A DNA stretch of 44,460 nt, taken from assembly GCA_010028495.1 (NCBI GenBank), contig RHCX01000004.1, positions 1-44,460 of the forward strand. Direction: 5' to 3'. The notes under the pieces are model-generated. The model was not told the DNA's origin and searched no databases. It worked only from the letters and a program-made list of their open reading frames with translations. The translations under genes were made by a program, and so were the position numbers. This DNA is from Nitrososphaeria archaeon (lineage in GTDB: Archaea; Thermoproteota; Nitrososphaeria; Nitrososphaerales; Nitrosopumilaceae). This document shows positions 35,322 through 40,934 of the stretch, one piece after another; position 1 is the first letter of the stretch; every line of letters starts with the position of its first letter.

Positions 35322-35783
35322 TCATCTAGAGATGCCGCATTTGACATAGTATTTTTGGTGATATTCCTCTGCCTTGTAGAATTCCGGCGCAGGTTTGATC
35401 TCTGTTGTAATTTTTTTGCCTAACTTGCCAGAGTCGTCTAGTTTTTGCTTGGACTCTTGGGCTATTTTTTGCTGCTCCAAGTCATGGCAGAATATCACAG
35501 AGCGGTACTGGGTTCCAATGTCCGGTCCTTGTCTGTTCAGCTGTGTCGGATCGTGTGCATTCCAAAATACATCAAGCAGTTTTTCATATGGTAAAACGTT
35601 TGGATCGTATTCCACCTGGACCAATTCCGCATGTCCAGTCATGTCGGTGCAAACCTCCTCGTATGTCGGGTTTTTTGTGTGACCCCCACCATAGCCCACC
35701 GTTGTGGATTTTACTCCAGGTGTTGTTCGAAATATGTCCTCAACGCACCAAAAGCATCCTGCTCCAAATGTTGCTTTCATCAT
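35322..35783 (-). CDS. msrA: Peptide methionine-S-sulfoxide reductase
   Basis: A 153-residue MsrA, which repairs oxidised methionine. The catalytic segment is [20 protein letters not shown]; downstream are [40 protein letters not shown] and YRSVIF. A resolving Cys is near the end (YVKCGISR). Length is normal for a compact MsrA. Two ATGs start the frame; the first is used. No MsrB is nearby. Confidence 0.95.
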
Positions 35784-35813: not shown

Positions 35814-36587
35814 TTATCCAGATTTTTCGTACAGCCAGACTTCTACTTTGGTCAGGGGTAGATTCATTGTATCTGGGAGTATTATTAGAAGGCCCGATTC
35901 CTTTCCAACATCATTACACGTGCCAGAGAAACGCTCATAATTTTTGCCAGAGCATTCGCCATTTTGATAGTACTCAAAGTTATCATCTAAATAATTTTGT
36001 TTTATTGATGGCACAAAATACACATCAAAGCCGACGTTTTTGTCGTTGATTTTTACCGTATAATCAAATGAGGTATTGTCTTTGGATGCACAAACAGGAA
36101 TGAACTGTGCATATCCTGTCTTTATTTCCGATTCGTGTACAAGTCGGTCTTGCCTGCTGTATTGTAAAGTGTACAGAGTGATGTTCGGATCTGGGTTTTT
36201 TTGTAGCCCCCCAACATATTCTATATAATGCCGCAGAGTATCTGCTCCAAATCGTGCATAGTGTGGCTCCCACGAATCCCGACAGTTGGAATTGCTGTTA
36301 TGGACCAAAATGTACTGCTTGCCATGCTGTGACTGTACTTCATCGACATTATTCTGCTTGGATAACTCCAGTCTTTCTTTTGAGCTGAGAGGTATTTTTT
36401 GTTGCTGCGACCATACATTTGTTATTTCATATTCTATATTCCCCGGATAACTCTTCCAGTCCTGCTGCAAGTGTACGTAAATAGACTGCTTGTTTACCGC
36501 TTGTTGCTGTAAAACAAACGCAGTTACAATATAATACGATATTATGATTCCAATTATTGTCAATACAACATAATGGATTTTTCTCAC
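35814..36587 (-). CDS. Membrane-anchored extracytoplasmic protein of unknown function
   Basis: A 257-residue protein: one N-terminal helix (about 5-26, YYIVTAFVL at its end), then an outer domain. Regions: SIYVHLQQDWKSYPGNIEYE, GKQYILVHNSNSNCRDSWEP, and a Cys-containing tail (YYQNGECSGKNYERFSGTCN). The three Cys could form a disulfide. No family or catalytic motif recognised. It follows the 50-residue gene on the same strand after 26 bases. Confidence 0.65.
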   Translation of the reverse strand: MRKIHYVVLTIIGIIISYYIVTAFVLQQQAVNKQSIYVHLQQDWKSYPGNIEYEITNVWSQQQKIPLSSKERLELSKQNNVDEVQSQHGKQYILVHNSNSNCRDSWEPHYARFGADTLRHYIEYVGGLQKNPDPNITLYTLQYSRQDRLVHESEIKTGYAQFIPVCASKDNTSFDYTVKINDKNVGFDVYFVPSIKQNYLDDNFEYYQNGECSGKNYERFSGTCNDVGKESGLLIILPDTMNLPLTKVEVWLYEKSG

Positions 36588-36613: not shown

Positions 36614-36766
36614 TTATTTTTGGTGCAGATTGTAGCCTGTTTCGTGATAGTATTTGTGTTCTAGTTCTTTGAGTTTTTCAAATAATTTGTGATTATATGA
36701 TTTCTCTAGTTTTGCCTTTATGGTGGTGTGATCTTGGATTAGTTTGTTTAATTCGGATTTTTTCAT
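36614..36766 (-). CDS. 50-residue helical protein, coupled to the metzincin-like gene
   Basis: Translates as MKKSELNKLIQDHTTIKAKL, EKSYNHKLFEKLKELEHKYY, HETGYNLHQK. It is Lys/Glu/Leu-rich and almost all helical, without Cys or a membrane segment. Its ATG overlaps the stop of the metzincin-like gene in an ATGA, which strongly suggests it is translated from that message. Role unknown. Confidence 0.7.
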   Translation of the reverse strand: MKKSELNKLIQDHTTIKAKLEKSYNHKLFEKLKELEHKYYHETGYNLHQK

Positions 36767-37620
36767 TTTGGCGATTCTAGCGATATTGCCTTGTTGAACA
36801 TCTTTTTGATTTCTGTGATTTTTGCATCAAGGCTTTTGATTCTGTTCATTGAATCAAGATACTTGTAGTATGCATCAGAATATTTGGCCTGTGATAGCAG
36901 ATCGTCGCCATCTACTTTGAAGGATTCTGCATCGGAGACAAGTTTTCTTCCAACAAATATTATGTTCTGAGCTTTTTTCATCTCCGCTTCTGATGCCTTG
37001 TTTGTAGTCCAAGTTGAGTTGATGGATGGTATTAATGCAGAGAATTTGGCCTCTGATGCATCAATCTTTTTGCCTAGCTGTGCTTGGAGTTTTTCTGCCT
37101 TTGGTTTCCAGTCACCGGTGGTGTTTTTTGGCGACACCTTTGTGTTTACCTTCATCCATGACTCGTAGTTTTCTATTTGGGGATACATGATATCTTTGGG
37201 GTCATCGCTGTGAGACAGACCCATAGCGTGTCCCAAGTTATGCTTGGCAATCTCTGTGGCAAACTCCGGAGATACTGTTTTGAGCTTGCCAGCCTTTAGG
37301 TAGGCAAGTGGTACTGTGAACTTCGGTTTGTCGTAATAGTTTTCAGTGTCTGAGCTATAGTGTCCTGTTTTGCTCTCATCAAACTGGCTCGACCACTCTA
37401 TGACAAAGTCCGATGGGTCTGGATATTTTGTAAGCTCAAACGATACGTCTGGATTTTTTTGCTTCCAGTATTGGAATGCGTTTGGTAGTACTTGATCAAA
37501 TGTCTTTTTCCACATTTGTGGTATTTGTTGTACGTATATTTTGTAGGTCTGAGCCTCGGCATTTGTCATAGTACCAGACAATAAGATAAAAGATGCAAGT
37601 ATCCCGTAGAACAGTTTCAT
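36763..37620 (-). CDS. Secreted metzincin-like protein with altered zinc motif (HNLGHAMGLSH)
   Basis: A 285-residue exported protein from the ATG at 37620 (MKLFYGILASFILLSGTMTN); an in-frame ATG at 37644 adds 8 residues. After a signal peptide ending near AEA comes a matrixin-like domain. The zinc motif is HNLGHAMGLSH (about residues 127-137) followed by an IMYP Met-turn. Metzincins have HExxHxxGxxH; here the catalytic Glu is Asn, while all three His remain. It should bind Zn but is probably weak or inactive as a protease. The C-terminal 130 residues are helical. It is coupled to the 50-residue gene and follows the FN3 gene. Confidence 0.75.
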   Translation of the reverse strand: MKLFYGILASFILLSGTMTNAEAQTYKIYVQQIPQMWKKTFDQVLPNAFQYWKQKNPDVSFELTKYPDPSDFVIEWSSQFDESKTGHYSSDTENYYDKPKFTVPLAYLKAGKLKTVSPEFATEIAKHNLGHAMGLSHSDDPKDIMYPQIENYESWMKVNTKVSPKNTTGDWKPKAEKLQAQLGKKIDASEAKFSALIPSINSTWTTNKASEAEMKKAQNIIFVGRKLVSDAESFKVDGDDLLSQAKYSDAYYKYLDSMNRIKSLDAKITEIKKMFNKAISLESPK

Positions 37621-37670
37621 GATTCTAGTTATTTTTACTCCCAAATAAGCAAAGTGTTATGTGTTCAGAA

Positions 37671-40600
37671 TTAATCATGTTTGATCTTGTTTCTGATCAT
37701 GACAATCAAAAATGCAGGGACGGCGAAGTACATGCCAATGTTTAGCAGTATTACTCCAATTCCATAACCCAACATTTGCTGCTCAGAATGAATATCGGCA
37801 TAGTTGAGTATTGACATTGTAGACAGCATTGGGGTTATCACAGTCTTTACTGCCTCTTTGAATAGCGGGTTTTGCCTTTCCCAGTCAGCAACTGTTGGGC
37901 TGAATGCATAATAGAATTCGTTGAATTGTACCATGAATGTAGTGCCTGAATCGGTGCTGAACAATACGTTGTCTCTAACTTCTCTGAGTAGTTGTACTTG
38001 TGGTGCTAGTTCTGAGCCAAATGCAGCGGTTGCAATTGCGCATTGGCCTCCTAGTGGACCAGAACTTTTGTCTGGAATGCAGACATTGTTTTCAACATGA
38101 GTTCCAGTTCCGCACAACACAACTGGTTGTGGCTCAGGCTCCGGCGCACCTACCACTTCGTAAATGGTCTTGCCTGGAAAGTTTCTATCAAACCATGACT
38201 TGAATTCAGCCTCTGAGTTGTATCGCTCCACATATGATTGTGGGTCTTTTGTCGGGTCGGGGAACCCAGGGATGTGTGTTATTGGAGTTTGCTGTTCCTG
38301 ATCTGGTTCTGGTTCGGTTTCTACTATGCAGGTTTGTGTGTTTTCATCAAATGCTGTTCCTGCTCCACAGATAGTAGGATCTATTGTTGATTCATCTGGT
38401 TCCTCAATTGGCTGTGGTTGATCTGCTGTTTTTATCGATACTTCATTTGATGCAAGACTATTTCCTGCCGGATTTATTGCGTAAATTCTATACGAATAGG
38501 TGTTTGCAAGCAAGCCCGTATGAGAATATGTTGTTGCAGTAGTTTTGCTAGTCAGTACACGATATGAATCTGCACCTATTTTGTATTCTATTTTGTATCC
38601 GGTGACGGTCGCACCTCCGGTGTTAGAGGGGGTGGTCCAGTACAGATTGATCTGTGTTGGCGATACAAGATTTGCTGAGAGCGTTGGTGGCGATGGTGGT
38701 TTTGCAGTTATCGGCGACGGTGGAGGAGTTGTCGATAGAGTTGCAGTGGCAGTTGCTTCTGTTGATGCCAAGCTAGTGCCGGATGCAGTTATTGTGTATA
38801 CTCGGTATGTGTATTGAGTTCCAGTTGCAACATTAGTATGCGAATATTTTGTAGTAGAATTAAGAGTGCTTGGGGTAAGAGTTTCAAATTGTGCCTGGCC
38901 TCGCTTTGCCTCGATTTTGTATCCAGAGATAGTTCCAGACGATGTCGGTGCAGTCCATGACAGATTGATTTGTGTTGGAGAGTACGGTGTAGCAACTAGA
39001 TTTGTTGGTGGATTTACATTTACAGTATTAGTTGATTGTGATGGAGGCGATGCATTTGATGTCGGCAGTGGTGTTGCAGTCGCATCTGCCGACTGGGGGC
39101 TGGCTCCAAGTGAGAAATATGCCGAGACCACGTACGTGTAGGTGTTGCCAGTAGTAAGACCGGATATTGTATAGCTGGTTTTAGTTCCTACATTGTCTTG
39201 TATTACTACAAAAGTGTCAGGTGCAATTTTTTGCTCTATTTTGTATCCTGTGATCGACTGTTTGTAGGTCTGTGATGGTGGAACCCAGGTTAATGTGATT
39301 GATGTTGGAGATACTGCTGTTGCAGTGACGGTTGGCGCTGTCGTCTCTTTCGGTGTTGCAGAGACTTCGCTTTGAGTTCCTGCACCGACAGAGTTTACTG
39401 CCGAGACTCTATAGTAATAGGTGGTTCCAGTTGTAAGTCCAGTGTGTGAGAATGAAGTGGATGTACTTTGCGAGTTTGAGATCAATACTTCGTATGCGCC
39501 TCCCGACTTTTTGACCTCTATTTTGTAGCCAGATATTGCAGAGCCGCCATTGTTTGATGGTGCGCCCCAAGAGAGGTTTACTTGTGTTGGCGAAGCCGCA
39601 GTTGCAGAAAGTGCCGTGACTGATCCCGGCACTCCTGCAGAAGATGTTCCGGATGGAGTTGCAGACGATTCACCAGATGGAGAACCTGTGCCAATCGAAT
39701 TGATTGCAGAGACACGGTACACATATGTCGTTCCAGAGGAAAGCCCGGTGTGGGAATAGATGGTAGATGTACTTGCGGTGTTTGCAACAAGAGTAGAATA
39801 GCTGCCAGAGCCAGTCTTGAATTCTATTTTGTAGCCAGAAATAGCAAATCCTCCGTTACTTGATGGTGCGCCCCATGAAAGATTGATTTGCGAGCTTGAC
39901 GATGCAGTTGCGACAAGGTTTGTTGGTGCACTTGGAACTCCAGATGTGGATGAAGATGTCGGAGTAGCTGATGTCTCAGAGGAAGGTGAGCTTGTGCCAA
40001 TCGAATTGATTGCAGAAATTCTATACGTATATGTTGTTCCAGTCGATAATCCCGTGTGAGAATAGCTGGTTGCAGTGTTGCCGGTGTTGGACACTAGATT
40101 AGAAAAAGAGCCAGAGCCGGACTTTACTTCTATTTTGTAGCTGGTAATTGATGAGCCACCATTGTTTGAAGGTGCAGTCCAGGAGAGATTCACTTGTGTT
40201 GGAGAGATAGGAGTTGCCGATAATCCAGTAGGCGGATTTGGTGCAGTTAATGCAGATGTTGAAGCAGGTTGTACCACTACCTCGTTTGACGCTTGTGTAC
40301 TTGTGCCAAACGATGTAATTGAATACACTCTATACACATAGACCTGATTTGTAGTAAGGCCCGTATGGGAATAAGTTGTGATGGTTCCTCCAGTATTTTC
40401 TACCAAAGTAGAATAGCTGCCAGAGCCGATTCGGTATTCAATTTTGTAACCCGAGATTGGATATCCTCCAGTATTTGATGGTGCAGTCCAGGAGAGATTT
40501 GCCTGAGTCGGCGAAGCTGCAACCCCAACCAGATTTGTTGGCGCATTTGGAAGCGAACCTGTTGATGTAGATGTTGGTGTTGCCGTGACTTCGGCAGATG

Positions 40601-40934
40601 TTGCACTAGTTCCTGCAGAATTGATTGCAGAGATTTTGTAATAATATGATGTGTTTGTTGTCAGCCCGCTATGAGAATAATATGTGGTGGAAGGAGAGGC
40701 AGTATTTGCAACTAAGGTGGAGTAGCTACCAGAGCCGATTTTGTATTCTATTTTGTATCCGGTTATTGATGCTCCGCCGTCACTTGTCGGAGTATTCCAA
40801 AAGATGTTCACCTGAGTAGACGATATTGCAGTCGCACTCGGATTCGTTGGTGCGTCTGGAACAGTTACCGCAAATGCCGGATTGTATGAAATGATTACTA
40901 TTATACCAAGTAATGCCCACGCTAGACTCTTCAA
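37671..40934 (-). CDS. Very large secreted protein with eight fibronectin-III repeats
   Basis: A 1087-residue exported protein. Signal helix (about 2-22, LAWALLGIIVIISYNPAFA), then eight fibronectin type III domains of about 95-105 residues each with the repeated SPTQVNLSW, GYKIE, YSHTGL and YRVSAINS elements. A Glu/Pro/Gln-rich linker with Cys pairs (CGAGTAFDENTQTC, CGTGTHVENNVC) leads to a conserved C-terminal domain (CAIATAAFGSELAPQVQLLR), like the CFI-box type of archaeal and bacterial surface proteins, and a final membrane helix ending in RNKIKHD. Probably a cell-surface adhesin or matrix protein. The start is TTG. Confidence 0.85.
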   Translation of the reverse strand: MKSLAWALLGIIVIISYNPAFAVTVPDAPTNPSATAISSTQVNIFWNTPTSDGGASITGYKIEYKIGSGSYSTLVANTASPSTTYYSHSGLTTNTSYYYKISAINSAGTSATSAEVTATPTSTSTGSLPNAPTNLVGVAASPTQANLSWTAPSNTGGYPISGYKIEYRIGSGSYSTLVENTGGTITTYSHTGLTTNQVYVYRVYSITSFGTSTQASNEVVVQPASTSALTAPNPPTGLSATPISPTQVNLSWTAPSNNGGSSITSYKIEVKSGSGSFSNLVSNTGNTATSYSHTGLSTGTTYTYRISAINSIGTSSPSSETSATPTSSSTSGVPSAPTNLVATASSSSQINLSWGAPSSNGGFAISGYKIEFKTGSGSYSTLVANTASTSTIYSHTGLSSGTTYVYRVSAINSIGTGSPSGESSATPSGTSSAGVPGSVTALSATAASPTQVNLSWGAPSNNGGSAISGYKIEVKKSGGAYEVLISNSQSTSTSFSHTGLTTGTTYYYRVSAVNSVGAGTQSEVSATPKETTAPTVTATAVSPTSITLTWVPPSQTYKQSITGYKIEQKIAPDTFVVIQDNVGTKTSYTISGLTTGNTYTYVVSAYFSLGASPQSADATATPLPTSNASPPSQSTNTVNVNPPTNLVATPYSPTQINLSWTAPTSSGTISGYKIEAKRGQAQFETLTPSTLNSTTKYSHTNVATGTQYTYRVYTITASGTSLASTEATATATLSTTPPPSPITAKPPSPPTLSANLVSPTQINLYWTTPSNTGGATVTGYKIEYKIGADSYRVLTSKTTATTYSHTGLLANTYSYRIYAINPAGNSLASNEVSIKTADQPQPIEEPDESTIDPTICGAGTAFDENTQTCIVETEPEPDQEQQTPITHIPGFPDPTKDPQSYVERYNSEAEFKSWFDRNFPGKTIYEVVGAPEPEPQPVVLCGTGTHVENNVCIPDKSSGPLGGQCAIATAAFGSELAPQVQLLREVRDNVLFSTDSGTTFMVQFNEFYYAFSPTVADWERQNPLFKEAVKTVITPMLSTMSILNYADIHSEQQMLGYGIGVILLNIGMYFAVPAFLIVMIRNKIKHD

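Follow-up and report, generated by a model that had tools for sequence, protein, structure and literature searches.

A matrixin-like protein without the catalytic glutamate in an archaeal relative of Ca. Nitrosotenuis is probably a maintained pseudoprotease

Pseudo-metzincins have so far been documented mainly in animal ADAMs. In the pseudopeptidases ADAM7 (HQLGHNLGMQHD) and ADAM29 (HHLGHNLGMNHD) of family M12, only the general-base glutamate has been lost, and the three histidines and the Met-turn are kept (PMC11266112). Archaea are unmentioned in the review of inactive metallopeptidase homologues (PMC11266112), and no paper on Nitrosotenuis metzincins or archaeal pseudo-metzincins was found in the literature searched. 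The window, which is the whole stretch of 44,460 nucleotides analysed here, is contig G000:C127 from a draft assembly of 1.63 Mb in 203 contigs (93% complete), and the nearest named relatives of this genome are the ammonia-oxidising archaea of Ca. Nitrosotenuis. It encodes a metzincin-like protein with the same pattern of loss and retention as ADAM7 and ADAM29; however, these two belong to another metzincin family and are animal membrane proteins with disintegrin domains, whereas the window protein is archaeal, M10-like and putatively secreted. The archaeal protein most likely adds an M10-like case to the pseudoproteases in which the glutamate alone is lost.

The listed open reading frame of the metzincin (36763-37644, minus strand) begins with TTG at 37644, 24 nt upstream of an in-frame ATG at 37620. 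The ATG gives a typical signal peptide and is therefore the likely start, so that the gene would occupy 36763-37620 (-). The hydrophobic N-terminus ending in NAEAQ (37552-37620, -) reads as this signal peptide, and residues 2-23 form a helix in the predicted model. The matrixin-like catalytic domain (residues 32-165; 37150-37551, -) matched Pfam Peptidase_M10 (PF00413) over residues 31-160 at 47.3 bits (cut-off 24; E 2.7e-12), so the metzincin motif did not arise as a chance hit. When the family was searched as a sequence profile, it matched MMP-10, MMP-1 and karilysin; the predicted model, which was built from a shallow alignment (mean pLDDT 80, pTM 0.51), resembled MMP-9 and karilysin in Foldseek (E about 1e-4). 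The motif HNLGHAMGLSH (residues 135-145; 37210-37242, -) keeps all three zinc histidines, and the codon alignment places AAC (Asn136; 37237-37239, -) at the position of the catalytic glutamate codon, as the earlier note had reported within a few bases. The Met-turn methionine (Met153 of IMYP; 37186-37188, -) is invariant in alignment A1, and a C-terminal helical domain follows (36775-37110, -; helices 179-202, 216-251 and 255-290, pLDDT mostly 76-91). The profile match, the three histidines in HxxxHxxGxxH and the Met-turn make the protein a matrixin (M10/PF00413) by descent, whereas the HExxH glutamate of an active matrixin is absent. Compared with the MMP-like peptidases of MEROPS M10A, it shares the catalytic-domain fold and these motifs; however, it has Asn for the catalytic Glu, a C-terminal helical domain instead of hemopexin, and no pro-domain cysteine switch seen in its sequence. 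A viral origin was also considered and rejected, since there were just two distant motif-level relatives in viral contigs and the PHROGs match was weak (E 0.019).

Homologues were surveyed for HN versus HE in a family set of 15 full-length or near full-length copies, 14 from 13 genomes of the genus (the window genome and 12 others) and one from a related genus. The full HExxHxxGxxH motif was present in 11 of the 15, and the glutamate was lost in two, namely the window copy and G009 (HMIGHLLSLPH). The other two non-canonical motifs, HELGHAIGLPD in G002 and HELGHAIGLPY in G007, keep HE. A wider survey drew on 17 genomes of the genus, and 72 of their 74 PF00413 matches were inspected: the third zinc ligand was changed in six, whereas the catalytic glutamate was replaced only in the window and G009, so its loss is exceptional. 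The window genome itself has three other intact matrixins, all with HE. The orthologues of Ca. Nitrosotenuis (e.g., G001, G013 and G012; locus L053 in Ca. N. chungbukensis MY2) have the same domain layout, are full length and share 37-50% identity with the window copy; however, they carry an intact HE (e.g., HELGHAIG) and are presumably active proteases. A catalytic residue is therefore lost that active relatives keep, as in a pseudoenzyme, and the loss is specific to the window lineage. With presumably active orthologues at the corresponding locus of sister species, the gene offers a clean natural comparison for how a secreted protease becomes a non-catalytic protein.

The window metzincin has also evolved faster than its orthologues. 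For most neighbouring genes, G000 and its sister G001 show similar distances to G012 and to G016; the metzincin is the clearest exception, with identities of 45% (G000) versus 66% (G001) to G012 and 38% versus 52% to G016. In the metzincin tree, the branch of the window copy has a length of 1.23, whereas the median is 0.23. A branch model of the metzincin alone gave an omega of 0.109 but was uninformative on acceleration, as the branch length was saturated at 8; the neutral time was therefore shared with the neighbours, in a codon model where the metzincin and six neighbouring genes had common neutral branch lengths and each gene its own omega. Omega was then 0.226 on the window branch and 0.087 elsewhere (2dlnL 36.5), and the nonsynonymous rate, calibrated on the neighbouring genes, was about 2.6 times that of the orthologues; two control neighbour genes showed little or no change in the same test. 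Neutral evolution (omega = 1) was rejected for the window branch (2dlnL 79), and the value of 0.226 indicates purifying selection as in a maintained pseudoenzyme, although it averages over a long branch with several neutral changes per codon site. Given nearly saturated branch lengths and a simple, home-made model, the ratios of omega weigh more than the absolute values.

The acceleration falls mainly on the catalytic domain, where omega rose from 0.056 to 0.214 on the window branch (2dlnL 38.2), whereas the C-terminal domain changed from 0.127 to 0.201 (2dlnL 4.8); neutrality was rejected for each (2dlnL 42-54). When G012 served as the control branch, omega of the catalytic domain was unchanged (2dlnL 0.3) and that of the C-terminal domain was slightly lower (0.093 against 0.152; 2dlnL 4.1). 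Moreover, 16 of the 55 catalytic-domain columns that are invariant in the other copies were changed in the window copy, versus 0-6 in Glu-bearing copies. The His ligands and the Met-turn are among the 27 columns of alignment A1 that are invariant with the window included; however, as about 71% of the once-invariant columns of the catalytic domain are conserved in the window copy, the retention of the three histidines is not significant on its own. It appears that the catalytic domain lost the extra constraint of catalysis and that the whole protein is still held.

The reading we favour is that the metzincin (36763-37620, -) is probably a maintained pseudoprotease, in which export and fold are kept, hydrolysis is lost and a binding or structural role remains. 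With the general-base glutamate replaced by Asn in this lineage, peptide hydrolysis would almost certainly be lost; the exported matrixin-like domain and the C-terminal helical bundle would be retained, the constraint on the catalytic domain would have relaxed to the level of the helical domain, and the protein would most likely persist in folded form outside the cell, with a binding or structural function. Its maintenance is indicated by the intact reading frame (293 codons) together with the rejection of neutral evolution. As the zinc ligands are kept, zinc binding is also plausible. The earlier note had proposed a Glu-less and probably non-proteolytic metzincin, and this part of its proposal agrees with the AAC codon and the HE relatives. 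A counterpoint to a maintained pseudoprotease is the slight acceleration that the C-terminal domain shows as well. The main rival is a pseudogene in the making, in which this lineage no longer needed the protease, the glutamate was lost and the frame is still unbroken. The long terminal branch, the many changed sites that were formerly invariant and the possible redundancy with the three intact HE matrixins fit such a decay, the independent motif losses in G009, G002 and G007 suggest that the family is often dispensable, and a branch-average omega would be compatible with recent decay after long constraint. However, the frame is intact, omega is about 0.2 in both domains with neutrality rejected, and the Met-turn and His ligands are kept like the rest of the 27 invariant columns, so this rival seems rather unlikely.

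Two other rivals would leave the enzyme active. Metzincins with the general-base glutamate replaced are essentially inactive. The kept zinc ligands and Met-turn might allow another residue or a shifted water to serve as general base; however, the motif contains no compensating acidic residue, the structural matches include inactive or active-site mutants of MMP-9 (1gkd, 2ow2 and 4jij), and a catalytic enzyme is highly improbable. A sequencing or assembly error in a normal active enzyme, which the earlier note had named as a possible refutation, could be suspected in a draft genome of 203 contigs. Every other copy in the codon alignment has GAG at the catalytic codon except G009 (Met); the change from GAG to AAC requires two wrong bases in one codon, so a single miscalled base is no explanation. 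The whole catalytic domain has also diverged to match, and an error is extremely unlikely.

The remaining rival concerns the neighbouring genes. The minus-strand gene order is an FN3 protein (37671-40934), the metzincin, a 50-aa ORF (36614-36766), a 257-aa protein with a hydrophobic N-terminus and no Pfam match (35814-36587; family unassigned) and an MsrA-like protein (35322-35783; assigned by its GCFWC motif). The earlier note had read the first three as an undescribed surface system, in which a zinc-binding-only metzincin acts with a small helical partner and an FN3 adhesin. Its placement of the three open reading frames on the minus strand is correct, as are the ATGA overlap between the metzincin and the 50-aa ORF (36763-36766, -) and the position of the metzincin after the FN3 gene; 'huge adhesin' was that note's own interpretation. 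The FN3 protein has eight FN3 stretches (PF00041, E 1e-98), a CFI-box-CTERM domain (NCBIfam NF041770, E 1.7e-19) and a C-terminal membrane segment. It thus resembles the CFI-box-CTERM proteins, on which the literature search turned up no paper; however, this domain belongs to the neighbour and not to the metzincin. Everywhere in the genus, the 257-aa gene adjoins the 50-aa ORF and the MsrA-like gene. A promoter and terminator scan built for bacteria gave only background-level signals.

The distribution of these genes argues against such a system. The 50-aa protein, which contains YYHETG and was matched by no entry of Pfam, NCBIfam or PHROGs, is spread family-wide: 29 of the 121 related genomes, from several genera of the archaeal family, have a single copy each. 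It is present in G011, G014 and G015, all without a full-length metzincin of the family, and in G008, G010, G006, G007, G004 and G047 it lies far from the metzincin or the two are on separate contigs. A block of the FN3 gene, the small protein, the 257-aa protein, the MsrA-like gene and further genes is common to much of the genus, and the whole 31-42 kb region is syntenic. For example, the FN3 gene and the small ORF of G014 (99% complete, without a metzincin orthologue) are just 2 nt apart; the same order without an intervening metzincin occurs in G008, G010, G006 and G004, and no metzincin remnants were seen between the two genes there. The metzincin occupies this slot only in G000, G001, G013, G012 and G016, and partial layouts were found in G003 (FN3-metzincin) and G009 (metzincin-small protein). 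It lies at other chromosomal places in about half of the genus, and it adjoins other genes in G006, G008, G010, G002, G007 and G004 (in G002 and G007 a probable protoheme IX farnesyltransferase gene, so named from its sequence reading). The shared strand and adjacency, the 4-nt ATGA overlap kept in G001 and G013, and the order repeated in G012, G016 and, for FN3 and metzincin, G003 are in favour of a system; however, the gap is about 5-20 nt in G012, G009 and G016, and in a compact archaeal genome neither adjacency nor an ATGA overlap does much to support a functional cassette. The prevalence of HE, also in most orthologues at the same locus, and the lack of a conserved neighbourhood were named by the earlier note as a refutation; they count against the system and not against the lost glutamate. 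The adjacency that a conserved operon would show is confined to one part of the genus, and a two- or three-component surface system is very unlikely. Because the block is found without the metzincin, an ordinary syntenic region into which the metzincin was inserted, or in which it was retained, accounts for the adjacency. The FN3 and 50-aa proteins belong to an older syntenic block independent of the metzincin, and the 'cassette' is the metzincin lodged in this synteny in one subclade.

The other Glu-less copy, at locus L009 (G009:C33), lies at the same chromosomal site and adjoins a homologue of the 50-aa ORF and the 257-aa protein. A single loss shared by the two copies was considered, and a clade of the window and G009 was rejected (AU p = 0.004, lnL 32 worse), although both rows are long and the choice of this pair followed inspection of the data, so some caution is needed. 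The glutamate was therefore probably lost twice independently at the same chromosomal site, being replaced by Asn in the window and by Met in G009. Formerly invariant sites changed in both copies are 85, 88, 93, 95, 121, 123, 267, 269 and 271; this excess of the same released sites (P 0.06 for the catalytic domain, 0.014 for all columns) is suggestive but weak. It is a tentative and rather doubtful proposal that proteases of this family were repeatedly converted to pseudoproteases, with Glu losses in the window and G009 and third-ligand losses in G002 and G007, and that the products are non-cleaving binders or decoys by which active matrixins at the same cell surface are regulated.

In a separate matrixin paralogue, HEFGH is intact, whereas the third zinc ligand (HEFGHALGLYP, or ending in LPE or LYS) and the usual Met-turn are lost. 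It was found at L157 (G008:C1:1161000-1163000), L158 (G006:C50:4300-6300), and L159 and L160 (G007), and represents a degenerate metzincin group common to several species. The window also contains, in this archaeal genome, a secreted-type subtilase (PF00082; 25144-27603, -) with Calx-beta and RTX-like calcium-binding repeats.
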